From contig OY987302.1 of NCBI GenBank assembly GCA_963920635.1, positions 28,867,278 to 28,931,277 on the forward strand: a DNA stretch of 64,000 bases, given 5' to 3'. The DNA comes from Pseudeuparius sepicola. Taxonomy: Eukaryota > Arthropoda > Insecta > Coleoptera > Anthribidae. Below are positions 1 to 63,262 of the stretch, piece after piece (positions within the stretch are counted from its first letter, which is position 1; each line of letters starts with the position of its first letter). The translations under genes and the position numbers were made by a program. The notes under the pieces were generated by a model. It was not told the origin of the DNA. It saw only the letters and a list, made by a program, of their open reading frames with translations, and did not search any database.

Positions 1-270
1 AATTTAAGTGCACTGTCACTTTACCCACACTTCACCAATTCAATTTTCTTAGTTGCCGTAGACTGAATAACCTTCAAAACTCGAAATTTCCGATATCAGG
101 TCGCGGCGAACGACCACAAAAAATATCGCAAAACCTAGAGTCCGCCCAGCCAAGTTATAAGCGTCCTACTAGCCCGGCCGGCGGCAATAACGCACGGGCC
201 CACGACCCGAAAATATCAAGTATAACACCTTCAAAGCCATCTAGACGGCAACTTTACGCTTGGTAGCTAG

Positions 271-27870: not shown

Positions 27871-28457
27871 TTTAAACTCAAAAAATTTTCAAATTGGCAA
27901 AGAGTTCCACAAAATTGGAGGAAACTAATAAAATTGACACTAAAGTACCTGTGACAACAGGTAACAACAAAGGTTAAAATAATTTTAAGGTAAAAAAATA
28001 ATTTTCTTTGGTTCAAGCAAAATAATTCTAAAATCCGGCTCGAATGAGGCCAAATTACTGTATGGAAACAGTGATGCGGTTATTTATAATGATCGAGTAA
28101 AAAAATATATCCACAAGGATTAAACAAATAATCACACGACAAATAGTACAGGAGCATAATGTATTCCGTGGGACCTTTTGTGAAGGGAGGTTGCGACTAT
28201 GTGGAATCTCTTTATTATATGCTACTTAATGCTGAAGTACCGGGTGTTTACCTTCGAGTTGTTGTGTTTGGTTTTTATGACATCATAAATCTAAGATGGC
28301 CGCCATACAAGACATTTATTCCTTCCATCAAGAATAACTCCTTCCAGAGGGCTCATACGCAAAATGTGCAGAGAACATTTTCTATTCTGCCTGAGCAGAC
28401 GAACAAATTTAGTTCTTATCGATTTTTCCGTATCTTCTACCGTTTACGAGTTATATA

Positions 28458-29214
28458 CAGTGCCCGCCAAAAAGTTGGAAGCATATGGGATTTTTTTTTA
28501 TTTTTGGGCTAAGATGAAACTACTCTGGGGCGATCATCTCTGCTTCTAAAAAGATTCGAAATGAGATCATTAAACGCCGTGACGTCATTTGACATAACTG
28601 TCAAAAATGACATTTAATTTAATAAACGGTCAAAATACGCTTTATTTGTGATTTTATCGAAAAAAGTTATTTAAAAAAGTTGCTTGGAATTTTATTCTAC
28701 CCCTATGTGCCAATTTTCAGACAAAAATTCTGACTGATAAATTTTGATTTTTTGAAAAAACAAACAAAAACTAATAAATTTCATTTTTTTGTGCCATATT
28801 TGACTATAGAATTGTTTGCCAATCATCCAAACGTGATATTTTTTAGTTATGGACCCTTTTTGGGTCATAATCGGCTAGTTTCAAGAAAAACTAAACTAAC
28901 AAGGTGCAATTTTTATATTTTTTCAAAAAATCAAAAATTTATCATTGGCAGAATTTTTGTCTGAAAATTGGCACATAGGGGTAAAATAAAATTCTAAGCA
29001 ACTTTTTCAAATAACTTTTTTCGATAAAATCACAAATAAAGCGTATTTTGGCCAGTTATTTAATTAAATGACAAGTATCTCAAATGAAGTCATGACGTTT
29101 AATAATAATATCATTTCGAATCTTTTCGGAAGCAGAGATGATCGCCCCAGAGTAGTTTCATCTTAGCCCAAAAATAAAAAAATCCCATATGGTTCCAACT
29201 TTTTGGGGGCACTG
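28458..29214. mobile_element. Tc1/mariner-type MITE with TA duplication
   Basis: Ends are CAGTGCCCGCCAAAAAGTTG and, inverted, CAGTGCCCCCAAAAAGTTGG, flanked by TA on both sides. The 757-bp interior is itself an inverted repeat (GATGATCGCCCC / GGGGCGATCATC). No transposase is present. Confidence 0.75.
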
Positions 29215-29381
29215 TATGTCACCGTCGGTTTAGAACCATCGGTTATTTATTAAGGGTGAAAAAATAGTTATTGTGCTGCTATTTACTCACAATAACTTTT
29301 AATATCACAATTAAATGCAACAAGCATTACAAGTAGTCATTAAAATGGTATAAAACACACTTTAATAAACACATAATGAGA

Positions 29382-29530
29382 TTTTTTATAAACAAATGAT
29401 AATATTACATTTATATAGCAAATTTAAATCATTTAATAAATTTATATTAGCAGTAGGCTCTACTACAAATTTATTAAATGATTTAAATTTGCGATATAAA
29501 TGTAATATTATCATTTGTTTATAAAAAAAA
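29382..29530. repeat. central hairpin, about 65-bp arms
   Basis: TTTTTATAAACAAATGATAA...ATTTAAATCATTTAATAAAT pairs with its near-perfect inverse after a loop of about 25 bp (TATTAGCAGTAGGCTCTACTAC). It marks the axis of foldback copy 1. Confidence 0.85.
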
Positions 29531-30059
29531 TGTCATGTATATGTGCCAATTTTCACACAAAAATTCTGACAATGATAAATTTTTGATTTCTTGAAAAAAT
29601 ATAAAAATTGCGCACCTTGTTAGTTTAGTTTTTCTTGACACTAGCCGATTATGACCCAAAAAGGGTCCATAACTAAAAAATATCACGTTTGGATGCTTGG
29701 CAAACAATTCTAAAGTCAAATATGGCACCAAAAAATGGAATTTATTAGTTTTTATATTTTTTCAAAAAATCAAAATTTATCAGTCAGAATTTTTGTCTGA
29801 AAATTTGCACATAGGGGTAGAATAAAATTCCAAGCAACTTTTTTAAATAACTTTTTTCGATAAAATCACAAATAAAGCGTATTTTGACCATTTATTAAAT
29901 TAAATGTCATTTTTGACAGTTATGTCAAATGACGTCACGGCGCTTAATGATCTCATTTCGAATCTTTTTAGAAGCAGAGATGATCGCCCCAGAGTAGTTT
30001 CATCTTAGCCCAAAAATAACAAAAAATCCCATATGCTTCCAACTTTTTGGCGGGCACTG
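29530..30059. mobile_element. second, truncated copy of the 28458 MITE (opposite orientation)
   Basis: Reverse complement of about 28458-28970, ending CGGGCACTG next to TA at 30060. The distal terminus is missing where it meets the central hairpin. It sits at the mirror-image position in the right arm. Confidence 0.7.
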
Positions 30060-30857
30060 TATATAACTCGTAAATGGTAGAAGATACGGAAAAATTGATA
30101 AGAACTAAATTTGTTCGTCTGCTCATGCAGAATAGAAAATGTTCTATGCACAATCTGCGTATGAGCCCTCTGAAAGGAGTTATTCTTGATGGAAGGAATA
30201 AATGTCTTGTATGGCGGCCATCTTAGATTTATGACGTCATAAAAACCAAACACAGCAATTCGAAGGTAAACACATGGTACTACAGCATTACGTAGCATAT
30301 AATAAAGAGATTCCACATAGTCGCAACCTCCCTTCACAAAAGAACCCACGGAGTAGGTAAATGTGCATTATGCTCCTCAACTAAAACCTTTAAACCAAAA
30401 TTTAATAAAAATTGTACCTTTTTATGGATCGTAATGCTTTTGGCAGGCCTGCCGGGTGGAATCCTTTGTAGCTAGCGTGATACAGGACAATAATAATTAT
30501 TCTTGAAAGTAAAATATTTTCTTGAAGACAATAATTTATCTTTTAATTTTGCTTTATCTTTTAGAAATAACCAATGGCATTTGTCTCCTGATTTGAACTG
30601 ACCAATGACATTTAGTAAAGAAAAATTAAAAGATAAAGAATCTGTATGAACCAGGCTTTCTCAATTCCAAAAAATATTCTATCTCCTTGACAATCCTTCT
30701 ATTTTCAATGGCACTCTTCTTTCTTGAAACTTTTGGTTTTTAAAAGAAAGTCATGGCGAATTGTAGAAAAGAAATAATAAATCATTTACAAAAAAAGTGA
30801 ACCGGCTTTAGAAGATTAATGCTTTCAGAAAAAAAATTGAAATGAAAAGATGAAACG

Positions 30858-32223
30858 CAGGGTGTCTCAATAAGGACTTCCGTCACTGATATCTCCGGAA
30901 CAAAAAAATATATTTTAATTCTGCAAACGCCGTTCGCTAGGACGTGAAGAGGACTTTATTCCTAACTGATAAACGTTCATTTTGACATTGGCGTATAGAT
31001 GGCGCTGCGGTGCAAAGAAACTTTTTGATCCTAGGAACGTTGGAGCGCATCTGAAAGACTGAGTAATTTGGAGAAACTTTTGTTCTATGGATGATTTTCC
31101 TATTGTTACTAGTTTCTGAGATAACCGCTCTACAATGTCGTTTACAAAAAATGTGCTAACTCGCTTATAGTTAACTTTAGAGGAAAAAGTTATTAAAAAT
31201 ATCTTTGTAGTGCACTAGGACGAAGAAAATAGCGGCACGTGTCAAATTATTACACATCCGGTTTGACCGGAAGTACCGGAAGTGACCCATTTTTCAGTTC
31301 AAAATGAACATACTGTACAATTTTCCCTCAAAATTGGAAAAATACACCTACCTGATAACAATAACACCTTGTAGGTACCTGTAGACAACGACAACTTGGC
31401 TGAATTTATTTTTATTAACCGAAGGTGACATTATAGAAATTAAACATGTCCTATGTTTACAATAAATATGTTCAACTTTATTTCCAAACCTAAATACAAG
31501 CGGCTACAGCACTGTTTTTACCGCATTCTCCATAAATTAATACCATATTTAATTTATCCTCATTACTATGATTAACCATTATTACAAAAATTAATAAACT
31601 AATCAGGCAAGAAACAAATTGACACTGATAGAGTATTACCTGGGCGTTTGAAGCTGCTAAATATCATATTGAAACAATGGACAGAGGACAGAGCCACCTT
31701 CGGTTAATAAAAATAAATTCAGCCAAATTGTCGTTGTCCAGATAATACATGGTGTTATTGTTATTATATGACACTGAAAATTACCTTTTTTCACTTTTGA
31801 GGGATACATTATTATACAGTAAAATGGGTCATTTCCGGTACTACCGGTCAAACTGGATATGTAATAATTTGATACGTACCCCTATTTTCTTGTTTCTCTA
31901 AAGTTAATTTTAAGCCAGTTAGCTCCTTTTTTGTAAATGACATTGTAGAGTGGAACTCAGAAACTAGTAACAATAAGAAAATAGTCCATAGAACAAAAGT
32001 TTCTCCAAATTACCCAGTCTTTCAAATGCGCTACGGTTCAACGTACCTAGGATCGAAAAATTTATTTGCGCCGCAGTGCCATCTATACGCCAATATCAAA
32101 AAGAACGCTTAGCAGTTGCAAATAAAGCCCTCTTCCCGTCCTAGGGAACGGCGTTTGCACAATTAAAATATATCTTTTTGTTCCGGAGATATCGGCGACG
32201 AGAGTCCTTATTGGGACACCCTG
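30858..32223. mobile_element. foldback element with CAGGGTGTCTC ends, 1366 bp
   Basis: Arms of about 550 bp (30858-31430 and 31690-32223) are inverted copies at roughly 85-90% (for example AACGACAACTTGGCTGAATT and its inverse, GATATCTCCGGAACAAAAA and its inverse). The spacer is about 260 bp. No ORF of note and no clear target duplication. Confidence 0.75.
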
Positions 32224-32384
32224 TATACTACACAGGTTGTTCCTGAATCGTCCGGTGAGGGTGAGTCTAGTACAAAAATTAATTAAATTAGTTATTAAAA
32301 TCAATTAAGGCAATGTTCTCATGTTATGTTGTTGATCCACTAAAGTTGCTCAACTAAAATCGGATCGTGAGAACCCTATAGTCG

Positions 32385-34305
32385 AGGAGCATAATGCACA
32401 TTAACCTACTCCGTGAGTTTTTTTGTGAGGGGAAGTTGCGACTATGTGCAATCTCTTTATTGTATGCTACCTAATGGCGTAGTACCCGTTGTTTACCTTC
32501 GAGTTGTGCCGTTTGGTTTTTATGACATCATAAATCCAATATGGCCACCATACAAGATATTTATTCCTCCCATCAAGAATAACTCCTTCCAAAGGGCTCA
32601 TACGCAATATGTGCATAGAATATTTTCTATTCTGCTTGAGCAGATGAACAAATTCAGAACTTATCAATTTTTCCATATCTTATACCGTTTAAAAGTTATG
32701 ATCTATTATATATATTCATATATATGAATTATGTCACCATCAGTTTAGAACCATCAGTTATTTATTAAGGGTCAAAAAATAATGATTGTGATGCTATTTA
32801 CTCAGAATAACTTTAATATTACACTTATATGCAACAAACATTACAAGTAGAGTCATTACGATGGTATGAAACACACTTTAACAATACATACAGGGTGTCC
32901 GGTTAATAATTGTTAATATAGCAACTACACTACACATATTTCGGACCAAAATATAACGATTGAGGCCAATACGCCTTAATAGAAATGTTGTTTGTTTCAG
33001 AAATTTTTTGAAATTCAATTATGATTACATCTCCCAAAATAAATCAAGCTGCTGAACTGAAATTTGTCACTGTTGTATTTTTGGGAACGAATAATAATAA
33101 TAATAATTCTCACCCTCACAATACTCAAAACTAGGAGTACCCCAGAAGCAACTATATGCTTGTGTGGGGGAGGAGGGCAATTACTATTATTTTGTCTTCG
33201 TTGCCATTTGCGGCTAAGCTGAAGATACCAATTTCTATGTATCTCACAGAGGGCGTCACTTGCGCTGTTTTTGAATGGAGCTTTTACTCGTAACTTTTTT
33301 GTGGTTTCCTTTTTGTTGTTGCAGATCTATCATTTTAGTGCATCTTTTCAATCTGCAACAAAAAGGTACTCTTGATTCATAACGGTAAAATAAACTGTTT
33401 AAGTTGAAATTGGCAAAATGTGTCACAAAACACCTACATATGTTAACTCCAACATTCGAAACATAAAATTTTCAGCTACAGCTTTTAAATGTTTCAGATC
33501 AATTGTACATTCAAAATAAACAAAAAAATTGCAAAATGTGCATTGGTTAAAACACCATTTGTTTTCTTGAAATAGTGTTCAAATTTTGCCGAGTTTCAAT
33601 CCGTTCCGTTTTGAAAGCGAAATATTTTTGGTACATTGTTCATATTTTTTTTCTCACTTTAAATGGTACAGTTTATCTGTAACATTGAAAAGTGGTAGGT
33701 AGAAATTTTATTTTTCGAATGTTGGAGTCAACAGGTGTTTTGGTGCACATTTTGCCAGTTTCAACGCAAAGGGTTGATTTTATCGTTATGAAAGTTGCTA
33801 TTTGGACAATTATTAACCGGACACCCTGTATGTACTATTAAAGTGTGTTTCATACTATTGTAATGACTTAATTTGTAATGATTGTTGCATATAAGTGTAA
33901 TATTAAATTTATTGTGAGTAAATAGCAGCACAATCATTATTTTTTCACCCTTAATAAATAACCAATGGTTCTAAACCGATGGTGACATGTATAATGGATC
34001 ATAACTGGTAAACGGTAGAAAATATGGATAAATTTATAATTACTAAATTTGTTCGTCTCCCCATGCAGAATAGAAAATGTTCTATGCACATTTTGCGTAT
34101 GAGCCCTCTGGAATAATTTATTCTTGATGTAATGAATAAATGTCTTGTATGGCGGACATCTTGGATTTATGACATCATAAAAACCAAACCGCGCAACTCG
34201 AAGGTAAACAGACGGTACTACGCCATTACGTAGCATACAATAAAAATATTTCGCATAGTTTCAACTTCCCTTCACAAAAGGTCCCACGGAATACATTATG
34301 CTCCT
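32385..34305. mobile_element. foldback element, copy 2
   Basis: Same family as 28150-30377: AGGAGCATAATG termini, arms with CATCAAGAATAACTCCTTCC, and CAGTTTAGAACCATCAGTT. It is interrupted at its axis by the TA-flanked element 32891-33828. Confidence 0.7.
32891..33828. mobile_element. TA-flanked inverted-repeat element inside foldback copy 2
   Basis: CAGGGTGTCCGGTTAATAAT at the left and its inverse at the right, with TA on each side (32889-32890, 33829-33830). Inner arms also match (CGAATGTTGGAGT / ACTCCAACATTCG). No transposase. TA duplication points to Tc1/mariner-type mobilisation. Confidence 0.75.
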
Positions 34306-34311
34306 GTACTA

Positions 34312-34792
34312 TTAACCATGCCAGCCCCAGAGCCCCAAGCCGAAATAACATTGCCACATATTCAGAATAAATTTAGGATTTCATAAAAAAATTTTAACAT
34401 TTTCATTTAATTTTATTATATTGAATTGTTCTTTTACAAAAATTAAGCATTTAAATGTTGAAACAAGTTTTACCCAAATGAAAATATTGTATTACGTATA
34501 TTAATACTTTTCCTTTTTTTTTTCGCTTTTAGTAACTCTAGGGCATCTAGTTTAGGACACCCTAACAATTACCATTTTTTGTGAAATTCTGTCATGTTTA
34601 TTTACTTACTACAAAATACACGTTAACACTTACCAAAAAGTGACTCTAAATGCTGCCGAATTTTTTAATTTGCTTTGAATCAAAGCAAGTTATAATTTAA
34701 AATTTCGTTACGATTTTTTTATTTTTTGTGGTAGAAATATAAAAATACCTCATAAACATTTATTAAACCATATCAATAATAATTTTACATAC
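34312..34792. other. kinesin intron, 5' end
   Basis: AT-rich intron sequence between the palindromic complex and the donor GTATGT of the first coding exon. Nothing else seen. Confidence 0.5.
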
Positions 34793-48022: not shown

Positions 48023-49334
48023 ATGCCGGAGTATTCGAACGCCGAGTTAACGGACATGGTTATAATGTACGGGAGATGCGATGAAAGTGCACATCGAGCT
48101 GCAGCAGAATACCGTATTCGTTTTCCTAACAGGGCAAATATGCCTAACCCACGTACTTTCGTGAACATTGTATGCGAAACACTGGTGTTTTGCAAGCTCG
48201 AAGGGGTGGGCCTGGAGGGCAAATGAACATGGACGATGTTGAGTCAGTGCTTGATTTGGTGGAAGAGCAACCTTCCATAAGCACTACAGCTATTGCAAGG
48301 AGATTGGGAATATCTCAGAACAAGGCAAGTAAAATAAAACCAATAAAACTGACTTCTACCAAAGACTATCCCATGTGATGGGATTGTCTTTGCTTGCACC
48401 TAATACCTACATAAAATTTAAAATGTAACAATACAATTATTTACAGGCATGGAGGATTCTAAGGGAAAACGGCCTTCACCCTTATCACATACAAAAGGTC
48501 CAAGCATTAGAAGCAAATGATTTTCCGGTGAGAATGACCTACTGCACTTGGCTACGTGATCGAATCGCCCAAGACCCAAACTTTGTTTTCAACATTCTTT
48601 GGACAGACGAATGCTGCTTCACACGTGCTGGGGTTTTAAACACGTATGTAAATTTTTACTTACTTATAGCTTTCTCTCCTCCATATTATCTTTTTTATTT
48701 ATTATAAAATTGGCTATGTCAATCCTAACGCCTTCGCCAAAATTGTGAATATTTCTAATTTTTGGTTTTTTTTTTTAGACACAACAGCCATATTTGGTCC
48801 GATGAGAACCCACATGCTGTTCGGCGGTTTAATTTCCAACGTCGGTTTTCCATCAATGTTTGGGCTGGAGTTTATGGAGATCGATTAATTGGACCATACA
48901 TTCTACCGGAAAATTTAAACGCTGAACGATACTTGTATTTTCTGACAAATGTTTTGTTTGATAATTTGCCACTACAAGTACTGCATGACATGTGGTTTAT
49001 GCACGATGGTGCACCAGCCCATTTTGCGAGACCTGTTCGTGCACTTTTAGACGACCAATGCCCCAACCGTTGGATCGGAAGAGGAGGGCCCATTGCATGG
49101 CCGCCGCGATCACCAGACTTGAATCCAATGGATTTTTGTATTTGGGGATTCATGAAGGCGATTGTGTACGAGCAGGAAATCGACAACGAGCAGCAGTTAC
49201 GTGAACGAATTGAAGGTGCAGCTGTCCAAATCCGGAATAATCATGGACTTTTTGCACGTATCCGGACTTCTTTAGTTAACCGAGTGAATTTGTGCATCGA
49301 AGTTAACGGCGGCCTCTTTGAACAGCTACTGTAG
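48023..49334 (+). CDS. DD41D transposase gene, two introns, one frameshift
   Basis: The transposase cuts and joins the element's own ends. ATG at 48023 (MPEYSNAELTDMVIMYG). A 1-base frame break near 48170 separates PRTFVNIV from RNTGVLQARRGG. Exon 1 ends at 48324. Intron 1 (48325-48446) begins GCAAGT and ends TTACAG, a GC-AG intron. Exon 2 is 48447-48643 (AWRILRENGLHPYHIQKVQ; first Asp in LWTDECCF). Intron 2 is 48644-48778 (GTATGT...TTTTAG). Exon 3 is 48779-49334 (HIWSDENPHA, second Asp MHDGAPAH, third Asp SPDLNPMD). The last two Asp are separated by 41 residues, the spacing of the rosa group. An HTH region lies in STTAIARRLGISQNKA. Apart from the frameshift it looks complete and recent. A sequencing error could explain the shift. 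Confidence 0.75.
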
Positions 49335-54045: not shown

Positions 54046-56067
54046 GGAAGGAGTTAATGATCTATGCTTATTATAAAATGGGTGAAACGGAAATCGCCTT
54101 GAGTAGTGACCAATTTTTGAAAAAATATTTTGATATCTGACAGAGTGATAATAATTATAGGTGTCAATATTCGAAATATGCTGTGCGGCTGGTGGCACTT
54201 CCCTGACCGCCAAAACTAAAACGTTTGAGAATAATAATCCATCGGTAAGTTTTTTTAATGTATATTTACTTTTGAGGTCATGCACAAAAGTGGCATAGGC
54301 GTGTGCGAAGTTATCAATAACTTCTTCATCATTGAAAATTTAAAATTAGTATTGCTGTATTATCAAGGATTCCTAAACTTAAAGACATAAACGTGCCTCA
54401 TAATATTTTGCCTGTATTGTAGCAAAGAAAATGATATGCGTAGTATCATTTTCTTTGATTGTAGGTAGGTACCTACTGATTTTACGAAAAATGAGGATTT
54501 CTTCCTCGAGTAGTTTGTCGAAACAACTCAAAGGTGCGCGCTACTGGCTACTCTAAAAACGGAAACGGCATCTCGCCATATGCATAGACTATCCCGGCCG
54601 ACCGTTAAGCCCATGTCTGATGTTTGATCCATCCTGGTTTTCTTTATTCAAATTACTAGGGGTAGGGGAGCCCAAAAGGTGATTTTGGGATTTACTCAAG
54701 CGCGACAGATTAACATATGGGGGGATACCTTGCACCCTGTTGAGTACCTCCACCAATATCTAAGCCCTCTATACAGGGCCGCGCGTGTAGGGCAGCCGAT
54801 CAGAATAGTAAAAAAAAATCGATAGGTGGATATACGTAAGGGGGCGGGAGGGTCACAAACTTGCAAAAACCGTTACCTCGACTTTCTCGAGCGCGGTCGA
54901 ATATTTTTTTATTTTGAAGGAAATAATTCAAGGATAACGGGAAAAATATAATCTGCCGATTTCCACAAGCCGAAGTAAAATCGTCGATAAAGTTTAGCGC
55001 AGTGAAGCATGTATTCCCCACTCCGCGCCTCTCTCTCCATTTCACTCTTTCCTCGCACCGTCCCCACACGCCAGCCATCACGCCATCACAGCTGATCACA
55101 GCACTCGTGGTATTATATTATGTACAGGGTTATTCAAACTCGATGTCCCTGGCCTATTGTGGGCAAACGAAAAGAGAAAAAGTATATCTGCTCCCGGGGT
55201 TTTAAATGGGACCAAACGAAGACTAAACTAAGATAAAATTGAGAATATTTGACAAACGATGCTCTGCGTCGCGACGCCCTTCGAATTTTTTTTGTAACGA
55301 ACGTCCATTTTTATTTGATATTTGGATAGACCTGCTTTTTATCTATAAGTTTTATTTTAGACGTTTTTGTCAAATTTTGTTTAGTTTAAGAAATATAGGT
55401 AATACAATACGTATTTGAAAAGCCCACGTTTAACACCCTGTAATATAGAAAATAAATTATTAAGAGCATATGTTTATAGACAATAATTCCTTAATTTTTA
55501 ACAGACAACATATTTTTCTTAGAAAACGCAAATATTCATAAAAAAAAATCATGAAAAAATTTTTTTCAAACCGTCAGATTAAGAAAATCCTTCCAAATAA
55601 TCGTCAGATTATGAATGAGCACGACCAGGACATCAAGCTGAACCGTCTATATGAAAATCTGACGCGCTCGAGTATTTCAAAATGGCGATTTTTTTTGCAT
55701 TTTCAAAAAGCCGCCACGAGCTGGCGTCACATCCGAATCGTCAGTCTATTGAATGGGAGCTTCTTTCGGGTTCACTTGACTCACAACTCCCGTTCTTGTC
55801 TTACTCATGACTATACCAGAGTTGTTTTATATGCTCTGACTATACGACGGATATCGGTCGTATATTCACGAGCTAGACAAGGACGTGAGTTGTGACTTAG
55901 GGCCGAACATTCGCTGAACAAACTGTATATAGGCGAAATCAAGTTGAGAAAGAGGAAACCGCCAAAGCACCCCTCTACCACCTTTTACTTTGGTGGGTGT
56001 TCTCGCTCACTATCACTCGCGCAGCCAACAGATCGCGGGTTACACGCTCATGCATGACACAGCTTAC
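54046..56067. other. flank between the Harbinger and P-like elements
   Basis: Contains a 14-bp perfect hairpin at about 54424-54458 (CAAAGAAAATGATA / TATCATTTTCTTTG). 55124-55445 has weak TACAGGGT-type inverted ends. 55750-55925 is the relative of the 39029 palindrome. ORFs at 54800-55099 and 55551-55895 carry no known domain. Confidence 0.4.
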
Positions 56068-56246
56068 CCTAAACCGTTGATTGAAGAAGGGGAAGATATC
56101 CTCCCTTAGGGTAGCATGCGAATATGATCCTTATGGTCTGTCTATCACATTCCCACTTGTTACTAAATGTTTCTGTCTCGTTCTCTTACATTTCACCGAC
56201 ACGCGTCCGTACGGTGGCGCCAAATTCCGAAACCACCATTCGAGTC

Positions 56247-56277
56247 GGTCGATGGAGAAAGGAATCTTCAATCAACG
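56247..56277. repeat. terminus-to-terminus scar E
   Basis: GGTCGATGGAGAAAGGAATC joined to TTCAATCAACG, i.e. the right and left ends of the 56075-63007 element fused. Flanking duplication is weak (ATTCGAG / GTTCGGG). Confidence 0.5.
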
Positions 56278-56727
56278 GTTCGGGCAAAAGGTCACTCCAT
56301 CGACGACGGAAGAGCGCAGAAAATTACGCGGTCAGCGCACCGCCACCTATGGACAAGGCCATACAACTACTGTCGTCCGACGCGACGACGTCCAGCTGTT
56401 TTTGTTTTTGATCTGTATCTGTTCCTCGTTTTCCTCGTTTACTTATTTTTATTTCCACTTATATTATCGTTACTGGGTAATCTGTGATTGTTATTACGTG
56501 TATTTGGTGGATACAGTAGTGTGCAGAGGACCAGTGGTGTTCTAGTCCGATAATTAGTGTGTGCCTATCAAAAACATTTCATGTTTGAGCCATCAGATAA
56601 AGGATACCTAAATACGGAGGTTAGGAAGTGAAAGTGTGTTTTGTTGTATACAGAGACTTGCCATCAAGGCAAGTCTCTCATTGTATGTATAATATCAAAA
56701 TGGGTGTTTTCTTGTGTTTTCTCAGCC

Positions 56728-56915
56728 ATGCCCGAGAAGTGTTGTGTCCCAAATTCGTCGATGAAGGAACGAATTAATCGACGCCCAAATTGCCTAACCT
56801 AACCGAGCCAAAGCCAAAAGTGTCCGTTTTTGCCTTTCCTAAGGATCCGGTTTTGAGCGCAAAATGGGTGCAGGCCATAAAAAGGGCTGACTTTGTAGTC
56901 AAGAAACATTCTAAG
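56728..56915 (+). pseudogene. THAP-domain exon, interrupted by scar D
   Basis: THAP domains are C2CH zinc fingers that bind DNA and start many P-like transposases and some host regulators. ATG at 56728 after TTTTCTCAGCC gives MPEKCCVPN. The 28-bp insertion at 56756-56783 with its 8-bp duplication then breaks the motif; without it the codons read CCVPNC, the expected first zinc ligand pair. In another frame come KPKVSVFAFPKD, LSAKWVQAIKRADF and KKHSK, the THAP core (F-x-x-P, W-x-x-x-x-x-R), ending at a donor AAG|GTAAGT (56916). A further 1-2 base shift lies between the two parts. The second half of the zinc finger (C-x2-H) would be in the next exon, not found. Confidence 0.65.
56756..56783. 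repeat. terminus-to-terminus scar D, perfect 8-bp duplication
   Basis: CGTCGATGAAGGAACG...AATTAATCGACG lies between two copies of CCCAAATT (56748-56755, 56784-56791), inside the THAP exon. Confidence 0.7.
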
Positions 56916-57023
56916 GTAAGTTACATGTTACATTTTTATATATTTTTCATAAAGCTTTGGGTTATTGTAGGTCTGTGAACAACACTTTTAACACAAGACA
57001 TTGAAAGGGAGACTACGTGTGTT

Positions 57024-57045
57024 CGTCGATGGTCCTCAATCAACG
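57024..57045. repeat. terminus-to-terminus scar C, perfect 7-bp duplication
   Basis: CGTCGATGG joined to TCCTCAATCAACG between two copies of GTGTGTT (57017-57023, 57046-57052). Confidence 0.7.
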
Positions 57046-57136
57046 GTGTGTTGTAGAATCGACTGGTGAAACTTTACGTGCACCCAGAGTTGCCACCCGT
57101 CCCGTATTTCAAGGGACAGTCCTGTATTTAAGTAAA

Positions 57137-57736
57137 GGAAGTGGCTATTTATACGTCCGACGGATACAAACGTCAGTATACGTCTTGTGCTCTCATTGGC
57201 GGGCTGAGTCACATGACTTCTTTGGACGTGCATTTAACTCCGTACACGTCCGAAGCCGAAGTAAACTAATATTTAGATACGTCGGAAGTGCATTTTTCTC
57301 AAGCATCTTTGCAATAAGGAGCGTATGCACTGCTCCTTTTTGGGGGATAGACACTGCCGTATGAAAAAAGAAGTGGTTAATAATTTCCAATGGTGTAACC
57401 CACCCCCGATTTTCTTGAAATTTTGGCTAGGTAGGTACCCCGTATTTTCGCCCGATGCGATGTTCGGCGTTGTAACCCACCCCCGATTTTCTTGAAATTG
57501 TGGCTACCCCCCGACATTCGGCGCGGTGCCGAATGTCGGGTGGATTACATCATTGTAAATAATAACCACTTCATTTCTCAATCTCGGACATCATCCAATC
57601 GACTTAGTAAACAAGCCGATTCATAATCCATCGAACGGTAGAAGTAAGGTTATGTGTCACGTGACTCAATCGACCAATGAGAGCGCAAGACGTATACTGA
57701 CGTTTGTATCCGTCGGACATATAAATAGCCACTTCC
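57137..57736. mobile_element. Mutator-like foldback MITE, perfect 9-bp TSD, copy 2
   Basis: TTAAGTAAA flanks both sides (57128-57136, 57737-57745). Ends GGAAGTGGCTATTTATACGT and, inverted, GGAAGTGGCTATTTATATGT. Same family as 42647-43593 (TTGCAATAAGGAGCGTATGC; CGACATTCGGCGC). 600 bp, no transposase. It interrupts a GTCCCGTATTT-rich block typical of a hAT end. Confidence 0.85.
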
Positions 57737-57745
57737 TTAAGTAAA

Positions 57746-59853
57746 ATGTCCCGTGTCCCGGCAAACATTCATACGGGACGCTATAAATCCCGTATTTTCA
57801 AAATTTAAGGTCACAATCACCACCATCTAGAGTCCAAGCCGCGACTCACATGTGAACACAAAATTTACTAAATTATAGTCCTTCATGCCTTCATTGGGGC
57901 CACACTACAATTTTCGTAAATGTCAATTTCTTGTGTGTTATGTGATATATCACAAAAAATGTTCTGTGATTTCTTTTTATTTTTAAAGGATTTATTTATT
58001 TTTGGTTAGTCGTGATTAGCCAGCCATGATAATTTGTTTTTGGAAGTTTATCCCTTCAAGAAAAAAAAACAAAAAATGTTCTGGTTTTTTTTTATTTTTA
58101 AAGAATCTATTTAGTTTAGTTTCATAATTTGTTTTGTTTTGTTTTTATGTTATCTTCAAGAAAAAACAAAAACAAAAAATAGTGGTTTTCTTTTATTCCT
58201 TTTCATTGGCCTTTTTCAGTAAAACATTTTGTAGCCCCCTCCCCCCCCCGAACGCCCGTCACGTCCCGTATTTTAAAATTGAAAAGGTGTCAAAAGGAAA
58301 TTTGAAAATTCATTTTCTCGGAAACTACGTCCGGCCTCAAAAAACTGAGGTTAGATTCTTGGTCAGGGACCTCGAAAATAGGTGGGTAGCCAAAATTTCA
58401 AGAAAATTGGGCGGTGCATATACTACGTTCCATAATTACCTCAAAAATTTGTTATATTGCCTAGTGGGATAGTCGCTGGTTGAAGGCGAAAGGAAGCGAA
58501 GGAAGGGTCACATGTAGAGTAGTCACTGAAATGTTTATTCTCGTAATAATTTTTTTGTTGTGATATTTTTATTGTTGAATTGTCATTTATTAAATAACTT
58601 AAATTATTGCTCTATTAAAATATTTTTGTGTTCCACAAATTAGTTGCTAAGTTATGTTTGAAATTGTAGTAGTATTTTACCTGGACACAAAAAAACGACA
58701 AACTTTGCAGAAATTTCAGTTATTATGTGTTTTTAAGATGCTAGTTGAACGTAAATAAAAATCGTTGGTATCGTACTGTCATGCTTGAAGATGTGCCTCA
58801 AAATGCATAGCTAATATTAATATTATCTATTATACAGTGAATAAAAAATGCGAAAGTGTGATTTTTCTTCTTCTTTTGGATAGGTGGCTGTGAATTCATA
58901 TTTGACATTTTCTTGGAATTCCAAACAACTTTTCTTAGTGCTATACTGCTGTAGTTCTAAAAATAAGACTCTTGAGGAATTTTCATATTTTTCAACCTTC
59001 CCTGTATACGAATAGAAATTTTAAAATTTTTACAGGCCGATTTTGAGTTTAAGCACAAGCACTAACTTTTATCAAGAATAATTTGTTTTGAGAAACTTCA
59101 AATAAAGAAAATTCCCATTTGTGTCCAACTTTCTGTCATTATTATTATTATCTCGAAAACAGGGCGGTATTGGAAAGTTATACCGTAAAATAGTCTTAAG
59201 ACACTGTATACAGGGTGTAACTGAACTGATGGTCAAAAATGAAACCACGTATTCTTGGAGTCAAAATAAGGGCACTTCTTCATATATTTTTTTCTTCTAC
59301 GGGCCTTAGTTTTTTTTATACAGAGCATAGAAGTTTAGAGAAAAATACACGTATTTTTTAGTATCTCTAGAATTATACGAGATAGTTTCTTCAAACTTGG
59401 CGTGTCACATGATCGGATGAGCCGTCAAACTTAAGGTTGAAATGAAGCTTCTGAGGCTCACAGTTGCGGAGATACAGGGTGTTATTAGAATTTATTACTT
59501 CAGAAAAATGTTTAACAAAAAGTATCTCTTAGTATTTTTTCATATTCGCAGCCGATGGAGGAAGGGAACAATGACGTATCTGTTCTCCAAAGTTCTACAT
59601 CAACGCTTTGATACCTTTAATCCTTGTTTATAATAGGTATATAATCAAAGTTTATATCGTCGGTTCTCAAACAACGGAATATACTTATAATATTATCTTC
59701 ATGTTTTGTTATTCGGTTATCGTCGATCGATAGCGTTTATTATACACAATATTTCATAAGCATAAGTATTAACACTGACATACCTAAGTATAAAAAATAT
59801 TATGTCTAGCTAAATTTATATAGTTGTCATTCATACAGAAAATTTGGTTTAGA
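57746..59853. other. interior of the P-like element, no recognised genes
   Basis: 57746-57800 and 58260-58285 repeat GTCCCGTATTTT, a hAT-end signature. 59210 and 59470 carry isolated TACAGGGTGT ends. No P-type transposase exon was recognised. Confidence 0.4.
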
Positions 59854-59877
59854 CGTCGATGGAAGATTCAATCAACG
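59854..59877. repeat. terminus-to-terminus scar B
   Basis: CGTCGATGGAAGA joined to TTCAATCAACG, flanked by GTTTAGA and GTTTACA (6 of 7 identical). Confidence 0.6.
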
Positions 59878-60224
59878 GTTTACAGCATAAATAATATAAC
59901 AAAACTTTAACGAAAAAATTAAAACCGACTTCAAAAATTTGCCCGTATGCACATTTCAACTAAAATTTTAGAAATATTTTTCTCTTTCTAAATTGAGTTA
60001 CCTTTGGATTTGGTGACAGTCAAGGCAAAGAATTTACATCTATTTAGATATGAATACATCATATCCTACATACATCATAACCAGGGCCCCCATGGGAGAC
60101 CCCTCCGGCAGGGCGCCAAACGTTGGTCCACCCTGTACTTAAAACTTATAGTTTTTTTTAAATGTTTGTTTCATACTTTACTTTTTGTAATATTTTTTAT
60201 AAATTTTATATAACTGATCAACTT

Positions 60225-61270
60225 ATTTTTTATATACAGGATGATTATTTTAGAACTATACCACCGCGATTTTCTCACTTATTTTGCGCCCTACAATAAA
60301 AAATCGTGAAGAAACACAAATGTGGCAATTTTGGACAGCTAAGTGGTGCTGCAAAAGAAATCGGCAGCCATAGCCAACTTGACGCGCAATATAAAAAATA
60401 CCTCAAATTGAGCAAAACAATTTAATAGCCCTAGCATATTTATTTTAAGAGATAGAGGAAAACTATCATATTGAAAATTGATGGCACTAAGAAGCTTTAT
60501 GCAACTGGGTACTCAGATAGTTTCAGAAAATTACACAGGGTGTTCGGCTCTCTTGAGGCTATGCATTTTTTGTTTATTTCTTATTAAGCGATTTTCTCGG
60601 TTATTTTAGGCCGCACAGAAAATAGATAAGAAAATAAAATATGGCAATTTTGGCCAGCCAGGTGACGTTAAAAAAGAAATGGGCCTCCATGCCCAATTTT
60701 TCGCGCTGTGCTGAAAAAACTTCAAATCGACAAAAATGTTCATGCCCTCAAGAGAGCCGAAGACCCTATGTAATTTGTTAAAACCCAATTAAAAGTTACC
60801 ACCTGGTACCAAATTTTGGAAAGATGGGCTAGAAGTGGCTTCTAAATACAAGGTATCGAAAAATTTTATGAGAAAAAGTTGTTTAGAATTAAAACTTATT
60901 GCCGTGTACCAAATTTTGAGACAATCAGCCTACTTAATTTTTTCATTTTTTCTTTAGCGCCTTAGAAAAAAAAGTGGGAAAACAAAGTAGGCCGATCTTT
61001 CCAAAATTTGGTACCCTGGAGTAATTTTAATTGGGAACAACTTTTCTTAATGAATTTTTTTGTTATCTTTAAAGGAAAAGGCACTTCACCTACAATGAAA
61101 ATAAATAAATGGTCGCTGTCGACGCCATCTTGATTTTTCAAAAACGAAAATATGCTAAAAATTAGTTTCCAGTCATAAGTCAAGCAAATCAGAACCACAA
61201 ACAATCAAATTTAAACGCGAATTTTTTTTTCTTTTACACATATTGGCTCACTTATCCTGGGCCACCCTGT
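60225..61270. repeat. cluster of diverged direct and inverted repeats
   Basis: 60270-60390 and 60590-60710 are diverged direct copies (GCGATTTTCTC, ATGGCAATTTTGG, CAGCCA). 60530-60776 has inverted ends (TTCGGCTCTCTTGAGG and its inverse). 60808-60830 and 60993-61017 are inverted (GGTACCAAATTTTGGAAAGA). These look like several small nested elements. Confidence 0.5.
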
Positions 61271-61491
61271 ATATTGTAAACAGCCAGTATTTGTTTTTTT
61301 TTTAATTTATGTACCTGTGGCTTTGAGTTAAATTTTTGTTATATTACTTGATCACAAATTCTTTTTTGTTTCCCTTGGGTGGTATTTATTGGTTAATAGC
61401 ATGAACTAGATCAATAATTCTAACAAAATCATAAGTTGATTAAACTACAAAACTTGACAGTTGCATATTATAGGTAAAAAATAGCTAGGTA

Positions 61492-62323
61492 CAGGGGCGG
61501 ATGGACTTTACCTAACCAGCCCGGGCATTTGTCTCCCAAGCGGCCCCTAAACATCTCATTTGGCTTTAGATTTTTCTTTTCTTAATTATTATCATAATAA
61601 CAATTAAAAAACAAACAATGTAGATAATGTATTTTTTTAATAAAACAAAATATACATGTTTTATGAAAACATAAATAAAATCATAACTCTCGTAAAACAA
61701 ATAAAACTTTTTTCTCTAAATATAAAGATATAATTTATTTTTATTGAATTCGAAATTCCGACTTTTAAAGTCGAAGGCCAACTTTGAAGTCAAAATTCCG
61801 ACTTTATAAAGTCGAAATTCCCACTTTTAACTCGAAATTTCGACTTTGAAATTCGAAATCCGACTTTGAACTCGAAATTCCGACATTGAACTCGAAGTTT
61901 TGACTTTATGAACTTCCAACTTTCAAAGCCGAAGTTCAAAGTCAAAATTTTGTGTTCAAAATCGGCATTTCGACTTCAAAGTCAGACTGCGACTTTAAAA
62001 GTCGAAATTTCGAGTTCAATAAAAATAATGGTGTGCCCCTTCTACATTGCCGTAAAACACGTAAAGAAATAATAGAACAAAAATAACAAAACAAAAATAA
62101 TTAATTAAGGCCAGTTGCACCGTCCTATCTTAAATTAACTACCTACTTACAACAATTATTGTAACAATGATTGCCTTTTGTTTTGTCAAGTAGTTAAGAC
62201 TGTCTTAAAATTTAAGATGCGATGGCCGATGAGCCTTCGAGCCTGCGGCGGCCCTCCGGGGCCCTTCGAATGACCGGCCCACCGGACATTTGCCCAGTGT
62301 CCCGGTGGTCCCATCCGCCCCTG
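61492..62323. mobile_element. hAT-like element, 832 bp, perfect 8-bp TSD, GTCGAAA repeat core
   Basis: GCTAGGTA flanks both ends (61484-61491, 62324-62331). Ends CAGGGGCGGATGG at both sides. The core 61745-62015 is built of alternating inverted units (TTCGAAATTCCGACTTT, AAAGTCGAA), able to pair in many registers. No transposase. Confidence 0.8.
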
Positions 62324-62397
62324 GCTAGGTACCTAACTACTGTCCCGGTTTTCGTCAGCCAGGAGTTGGTCACCTTGTTGTATATGAATATTATAAC

Positions 62398-62425
62398 CGT
62401 CGATGGAGGAAGGAATCAATCAACG
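62398..62425. repeat. terminus-to-terminus scar A, perfect 7-bp duplication
   Basis: CGTCGATGGAGGAAGGAAT joined to CAATCAACG between two copies of TTATAAC (62391-62397, 62426-62432). Confidence 0.7.
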
Positions 62426-62469
62426 TTATAACCACAGAAAATATAGCGTATATTTTCTGTGGTTATAAC
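62425..62469. repeat. perfect 21-bp inverted repeat hairpin
   Basis: GTTATAACCACAGAAAATAT plus A pairs exactly with its inverse across a 3-nt GCG loop. It begins at the right edge of scar A. Confidence 0.9.
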
Positions 62470-62727
62470 TCCATTATAAAGAGATTATTTTAAAAAGACT
62501 CGAGAAATTTGTTGTTAACAATTAATAACGTTACTCGCTACTTTAAAAAAACCGCCTCCATAGGCAAAGAGGGGGGCGGGGCCGCGGCCGGGCGACTCGA
62601 ATCGAACGCTGGAATACAAAATCTAAAATATATCTTTCAGCTGTCGATCGATGGCGATGACTCATTCGTACCAGCACAAAAAACGCAAACAACCAAGGTC
62701 AAATCAACAGATTTGGCAAGCCGCGAA

Positions 62728-62870
62728 GCGCGCCATCTGCCGAACAAAAGTTCGTCTTGGGAAGCCGCATTACAAGTGCGCAGTGCGCCATCTACCGGAC
62801 AGAAGCCTCTCTTCCACCTCAACGCCGAGACGTAATCCGAGGATGGTGCAAGTGCGCCATCTACCGAACA
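62728..62870. repeat. three copies of GCGCCATCTNCCG near the right end of the P-like element
   Basis: GCGCGCCATCTGCCGAACA, GTGCGCCATCTACCGGACA and GTGCGCCATCTACCGAACA lie at about 62730, 62780 and 62850, within 300 bp of the right terminus. They could be subterminal transposase sites. The core also resembles the insect CTCF motif. Confidence 0.6.
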
Positions 62871-63262
62871 ACCGTGTCGGACTGGGAAGCCTCGTTTCCC
62901 CCACCGCGCCGAGAAGTATTCGACGGTGGCTCCATCTTCTTCCGAAGAGTATTGAGTCAGTCGGTATTTCGCATTAGGAAACTAATCTTTACCTTCCTCC
63001 ATCGACGCCTAAACATACTCATGGGGTCAAACGGAGTCGGGGAAGACGAGGGCGGACTGGGCGGAGGATGGTGGGTATGAGGGGAATGAAAGAGAAGAAT
63101 CGATTATTAATTTATGCTCCCTACTCTCACCCCCACCAGAAACCCTGCCATCTGCCATTGGCCATTGGCCGCAACAACATGAGAGTCACCAGTCTATTCG
63201 GGCATGCACATTCGGGTAATAAAATAAAATAATACTTGTTACACTATTTTAAATAAAAATAT

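Follow-up and report, generated by a model that had tools for sequence, protein, structure and literature searches.

Short scars within copies of a P-superfamily transposon of Pseudeuparius sepicola as very probable inherited excision footprints

A stretch of 64,000 nucleotides from Pseudeuparius sepicola (assembly GCA_963920635.1, contig OY987302.1, positions 28,867,278 to 28,931,277; here called the window) contains a copy of a P-superfamily transposon that carries five short insertions (scars S1 to S5, 22-31 nt), composed of sequence from the element's own two ends (Table 1). Such insertions are, with high probability, footprints of excision by this P-superfamily transposon. This reading rests on a sixth scar (S6), which is private to one copy and whose site is empty in sister copies, and on the varied junctions that lie between target-site duplications at unrelated places. 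An earlier note on the window had proposed excision footprints of the same family, for which S6, 36 distinct sites outside the known copies and the control counts now provide good support. It had also taken the scars to record events within one element; this part was given up, and events private to the window copy are ruled out for S1 to S5, as other copies share them.

Both 16-nt ends of the element, the CCTAAAC duplication, the five insertions (the second recognised by eye) and the four flanking duplications given in the earlier note were all present. In the genome (769 Mb in 16 contigs), the left-end 16-mer had 251 exact matches and its reversed control none. Out of 100 listed matches, 86 were inspected: 79 ran on as element (one of them, L085, diverged), three were by eye solo scars in which 17 or 18 left-end nucleotides remain, and four, also by eye, ended at nt 16-18, three being followed by foreign DNA and one (L034) by the element's own interior. 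Twenty copies were taken as stretches of approximately 10 kb, which together with the window copy gave a sample of 21. A right end with a 7/7 duplication was found within the stretch for 15 of the 20 fetched copies (in L011 as one of two candidate right ends), and the remaining five had no right end in the stretch. The 16 complete copies, including the window copy, all had a 7/7 duplication and were 97.1-99.6% identical to their own majority sequence (window copy, 99.6%), with T at position 2 of the target in 15 and A at position 6 in 15. The target at which copies with these ends generate their 7-bp duplications is thus palindromic (NTNNNAN). Across full copies and scar sites the duplication was usually 7 bp and now and then 8 bp, and an 8-bp duplication as the rule, as in Drosophila, is ruled out by both.

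The family is assigned to the P superfamily on the basis of its THAP domain, the 7-bp duplication, the palindromic target and the type of footprint; the features of that superfamily present here are the THAP domain, the 7- or 8-bp duplication and terminal inverted repeats, which are imperfect (13 of 16 nt identical between CGTTGATTGAAGAAGG and CCTTCCTCCATCGACG). An open frame at 56778-56975 matched Pfam THAP PF05485 (E 1.9e-5; 25.8 bits, the cut-off being 23.9), and a shorter 37-residue piece scored 23.3 bits, slightly under the cut-off. The exon remnant is disrupted by a scar and, by eye, by a change of frame. The window copy has 34 open frames of at least 55 amino acids; the 20 of them that were covered gave THAP, two weak matches below the cut-off (CaM-KIIN and Med27) and nothing else. 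The P-like character named in the earlier note is borne out by the number of left-end matches, the duplications of the complete copies and the THAP exon remnant.

The five scars were widespread among the sampled copies (Table 1). Of 16 aligned copies, 15 carry S2 and the remaining one is deleted there; all eight of the first loci have it as well. The scars are also seen in L030 and L031, two additional full copies. In one copy, L019, identity falls to about 85% over portions of the left part, including the stretch around S2; this copy kept S1 in a decayed form and S2 as a variant differing from the window at 4 of 28 positions. Where inspected, absent scars coincided with truncated copies or with gaps extending past the scar. 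Since they are common to the sampled copies, S1 to S5 must have arisen in an ancestor of these copies. S6 was found only in L009 among the loci scanned, in the form CTGGAAT, 29 nt, CTGGAAT; to the 29 nt the right end contributes 17 and the left end 13, one nt being common to both. Of the 15 other complete copies, 14 have the empty site, with CTGGAAT once (L020 is deleted there), and the empty site was present in 17 loci once partial and later copies had been added. Of the flanking duplications, the mismatch at S4 in the window is probably later decay, because a diverged relative (L092) has GTTTAGA on both sides (7/7).

Scars of variable middle, which the earlier note had suggested looking for elsewhere in the genome along with full copies bearing these ends and 7-8 bp duplications, were found, as were such copies, with 7-bp duplications. 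The exact pattern CGTCGATG-N(3..33)-CAATCAACG gave 1954 matches genome-wide, which include scars inside element copies, copies within other repeats and array units; the reversed control gave 2. The matches listed comprised 100 places in the first 25 Mb of C1, of which 60 were taken; the remaining 40 were 23 places within known copies, 15 additional tandem-array units and 2 more. Before clustering, 29 of the 60 stretches had a 7/7 duplication and 17 a 6/7 duplication. Clustering by flanks gave 36 distinct sites, the best members of which had 7/7 (26 sites), 8/8 (3), 6/7 (4) or weaker duplications (3), compared with 7/7 in 0.24% and 6/7 in 2.3% of 1260 mismatched flank pairs. These sites carry 31 scar sequences, 20-31 nt long where the pattern permitted 20-50 nt, and the duplications show the same logo as full copies (T at position 2 and A at position 6, each in 24 of 26). 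A 27-mer and a 24-mer each occurred at three sites with different duplications, and further solo scars at L029, L035, L073 (two) and L094 all had 7/7 duplications.

Two footprints appear to have been multiplied by other repeats. A 28-mer or a near variant of it recurred in 18 of the 60 stretches. For the earlier note, an invariant middle would have meant a fixed micro-repeat; the 28-mer does recur outside known copies with an invariant middle, yet the 18 stretches share their flanks and it is therefore most simply one footprint copied within another dispersed repeat. The repeat that carries a second footprint also occurs as an array of 149-bp period. In such a tandem array (G000:C1:15767034-15769290), the same 22-nt scar was seen in 16 units among the matches listed.

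Chance was assessed with several sets of controls. Within 334,637 collected bases (six overlapping loci excluded, four short overlapping ones kept), a scan with the specific motifs gave 158 motif pairs. A duplication matching at 6/7 or better flanked 68 of these, most of which are the same inherited scars met again in different copies; with seven control motif pairs the counts were 0-18, and none of these pairs had a duplication. When generic six-base motifs were used, 63 of 96 pairs had a duplication, and eight controls yielded 0-2 pairs, none of them with one. In the window only, where each motif could carry one mismatch, 71 pairs were found, three of them with a duplication (S3, S4 and S5), and six controls gave 38-101 pairs with 1, 0, 0, 0, 0 and 0 duplications. 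Chance matches are ruled out by the motif-pair, six-base and genome-wide controls, the looser window control having yielded that single duplication-flanked pair.

Excision of the Drosophila P element leaves 17-nt 3' tails, which end joining turns into junctions between the target copies that are blunt, show short microhomology or contain filler (PMC2895639); the 17-nt stagger is also given in PMC7776569. The scars described here are of the same type as these junctions. Judged against the left end of the element itself, 8 of the 36 sites had a junction free of filler (seven direct joins and one overlap of one nt), and with two left-end variants allowed, which were derived from the scars themselves, this applied to 19 sites (17 direct joins and two overlaps); several scars seem to come from relatives with a slightly different inner end sequence. 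The data agree with a limit of 17 nt per end, as the total length did not exceed 31 nt in the 36 sites and four left ends stopped at nt 16-18. Junctions of excised circles are ruled out, because the end tips point outward toward the duplications. A copy of the element, or a relative with similar ends, would have inserted into an ancestral copy and been excised by transposase, so that the host DNA was left with 3' tails made up of about 17 nt of each end; end joining would have trimmed and sealed these tails into a scar, and the scarred copy would have kept its mobility and multiplied.

Several points weigh against excision footprints. The intermediate, a full element at a scar site, was not seen among the loci collected, and empty sites for S2 to S5 were not found in these loci with up to 3 substitutions allowed, S1 being outside that search. 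No transposase gene was found in the window copy, which looks non-autonomous because there is no catalytic domain in the 20 open frames mentioned above. Many junctions are free of filler only under the variants obtained from the scars, and two junctions would then keep 18-19 nt; support for the 17-nt limit is indirect. A good 7-bp duplication is missing at S1 (best flank pair ATTCGAG/GTTCGGG, by eye, a 5/7 match plus two additional bases) and at three of the 36 sites, one of which (L111) fits 7/8.

Two rivals would deny that the scars are neutral leftovers of excision. Tiny mobile elements of 20-31 nt, transposing as such, would explain why one 28-mer and its near variants occupy 18 of 60 places, why target duplications flank the scars as they do with insertions, and why the 27-mer and the 24-mer recur next to different duplications. 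The shared flanks of the 18 places, however, suggest a single scar multiplied within another repeat, and the 36 distinct sites carry 31 sequences; a mobile micro-repeat is judged unlikely on these two grounds. P-type transposition moreover requires more than 30 bp of sequence, and we consider this explanation highly improbable. Functional internal sites under selection, for example for transposase docking, would account for the terminal sequence in the scars and for their retention in most sampled copies, S1 and S2 being kept even in the partly divergent L019. This rival has to contend with the duplications, with the variation in length and junction, with the changes in S2 of L019 and the restriction of S5 to 14 of 21 copies, and with one scar lying within the THAP exon and similar scars in unrelated DNA; its probability appears to be smaller still.

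Excision footprints being preferred, there is the further matter of whether the family inserts preferentially into itself. Exact-pattern scars were 150-260 times denser in the element than genome-wide, which suggests self-insertion: 36 sites in 24.06 Mb predict 0.011 per 7649-bp element, and three were observed (S3, S4 and S5; 262-fold, p 2.5e-7), or 0.019 if all 1954 matches are taken as independent (154-fold, p 1.2e-6), both p-values overstating the case, as the window was picked for its scars and the background is one stretch of one contig. S1 to S6 are all opposite to the host element in orientation (6/6, two-sided p 0.03), and a left-end remnant in the diverged L095 and a right-end tip at 56297-56305 run to the contrary, following the host. 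The footprints may, on the other hand, be real with no preference for self-insertion, the lineage having been exposed for longer or in open chromatin. The choice of a window with scars, a density taken from one 24-Mb stretch of one contig and the presence of inherited scars in other repeats all speak for this, and the density and the uniform orientation speak against it; we give it a serious chance, somewhat short of even. The repeated self-insertion proposed in the earlier note is in keeping with scars that lie in the element, and no inserted element was seen at a scar site. Insertion into its own copies may have been more frequent than elsewhere, perhaps through reinsertion of a freshly excised copy into the copy on the sister chromatid. 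A scar with the host copy still intact may come mainly from inserts in opposite orientation, since an insert in the same orientation would let the outer left end pair with the inner right end, deleting part of the host.

Table 1. Coordinates of the element, its scars and associated features (window positions)
Feature	Position	Strand	Remarks
Left target-site duplication CCTAAAC	56068..56074	.	7/7 match to 63008-63014
P-superfamily element copy, 6933 bp	56075..63007	+	ends CGTTGATTGAAGAAGG / CCTTCCTCCATCGACG
Scar S1, 31 nt, inherited	56247..56277	-	no clean duplication; in 20/21 copies, decayed form in L019
THAP-type transposase first-exon remnant	56728..56915	+	broken by scar S2, then gtaagt; bounds by eye
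Scar S2, 28 nt, inside THAP exon	56756..56783	-	CCCAAATT 56748-56755 and 56784-56791 (8/8)
Scar S3, 22 nt	57024..57045	-	GTGTGTT 57017-57023 and 57046-57052 (7/7); 20/21 copies
Candidate decayed scar, weak	59551..59576	-	duplication not seen; 2 mismatches to right end
Candidate decayed scar, weak	59658..59676	-	duplication not seen
Scar S4, 24 nt	59854..59877	-	GTTTAGA 59847-59853 / GTTTACA 59878-59884 (6/7); 19/21 copies
Scar S5, 28 nt	62398..62425	-	TTATAAC 62391-62397 and 62426-62432 (7/7); 14/21 copies
Empty target CTGGAAT	62609..62615	.	site of scar S6 in L009
Right target-site duplication CCTAAAC	63008..63014	.	pairs with 56068-56074

Other features were noted in the window. The right-end tip at 56297-56305 (CCATCGACG) stands alone just past S1, with neither partner nor duplication seen. 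A perfect 21-nt inverted repeat (62425-62469, arms GTTATAACCACAGAAAATATA, 3-nt spacer) adjoins S5 and shares its target TTATAAC. Several repeats of about 150-815 bp with 78-96% identity lie in both orientations at 28142-34313, and a DDE_3 transposase fragment is present at 48759-49331 (E 4.2e-6, slightly under the Pfam cut-off).

Other P-like ends occurred in the stretches collected. A second P-like element, short (about 180 bp) and bounded by CGTTGACTGACGTATTA ends, was recognised by eye at L022:3610-3789 (duplication GTACCAT) and at L015:9493-9670, where the duplication fits only after a one-base shift. A footprint with CGTTGACTGACGTATTA ends at L022:8235 is a 32-nt palindrome flanked by GTTGAGT (7/7) and equals, by eye, 17 + 17 - 2 nt with a TA microhomology; the same type of product, marked (TA), is represented by five isolates in the Drosophila table (PMC2895639). 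A 31-nt footprint with these ends lies at L009:56 (6/7), and by eye a 32-nt palindrome of them in L094 has no matching duplication. Footprint-like scars with other ends, at L017:58 (28 nt, 6/7) and L027:9554 (22 nt, 7/7), perhaps represent further P-like families.

Among known systems, the Drosophila P{wa} junctions (PMC2895639) resemble the scars in that the outermost nucleotides of both ends are fused between target copies, with 17-nt 3' tails, blunt joins, 1-3 nt of microhomology and fillers on the Drosophila side. Those junctions were induced in the laboratory at an 8-bp target, whereas the present ones are natural and heritable, usually have a 7-bp target and lie partly in the family's own copies. 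Galileo of Drosophila, also of the P superfamily (PMC4168063), has a THAP domain and mostly 7-bp duplications (8 bp in three copies) with the palindromic consensus GTANTAC, a target similar in length and motif to that found here; its terminal inverted repeats are long and foldback-like, unlike the imperfect ones of about 16 nt in the present element. No inverted repeat joining both ends was found among the 25 longest of 46 pairs of at least 20 nt in 55900-63200. Anopheles gambiae likewise holds several P subfamilies and short derivatives (P-derived miniature inverted-repeat transposable elements) in one genome (PMC1562414), and the abstract of that paper makes no mention of self-excision scars. 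The titles, abstract openings and parts of papers covered in the open-licence literature contained no description of a transposon family that inherits scars of its own excision.

Laboratory assays have already revealed footprints of P transposase; those described here are natural, inherited by a transposon family and dispersed in a genome. At 20-31 nt they are easy to overlook, and one of them disrupts a coding exon, while others ride in repeats including a tandem array. The 36 distinct sites in 24 Mb correspond to approximately 1,150 in 769 Mb, if the stretch is typical, which would provide a germline catalogue of end-joining outcomes on an apparently 17-nt-tailed break. Scars shared between copies allow insertions and losses to be ordered, and the system allows testing of whether a P-type transposon homes to itself. 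That the family preferentially reinserts into its own copies, in opposite orientation, each abortive cycle leaving a heritable scar of 20-31 nt, so that the scars of each copy would serve as a recorder of the family's transposition history and of host germline end joining, is a proposal for and against which we hold the evidence to be evenly balanced. If it is true, about a thousand natural repair junctions, by extrapolation, would be readable in one genome.

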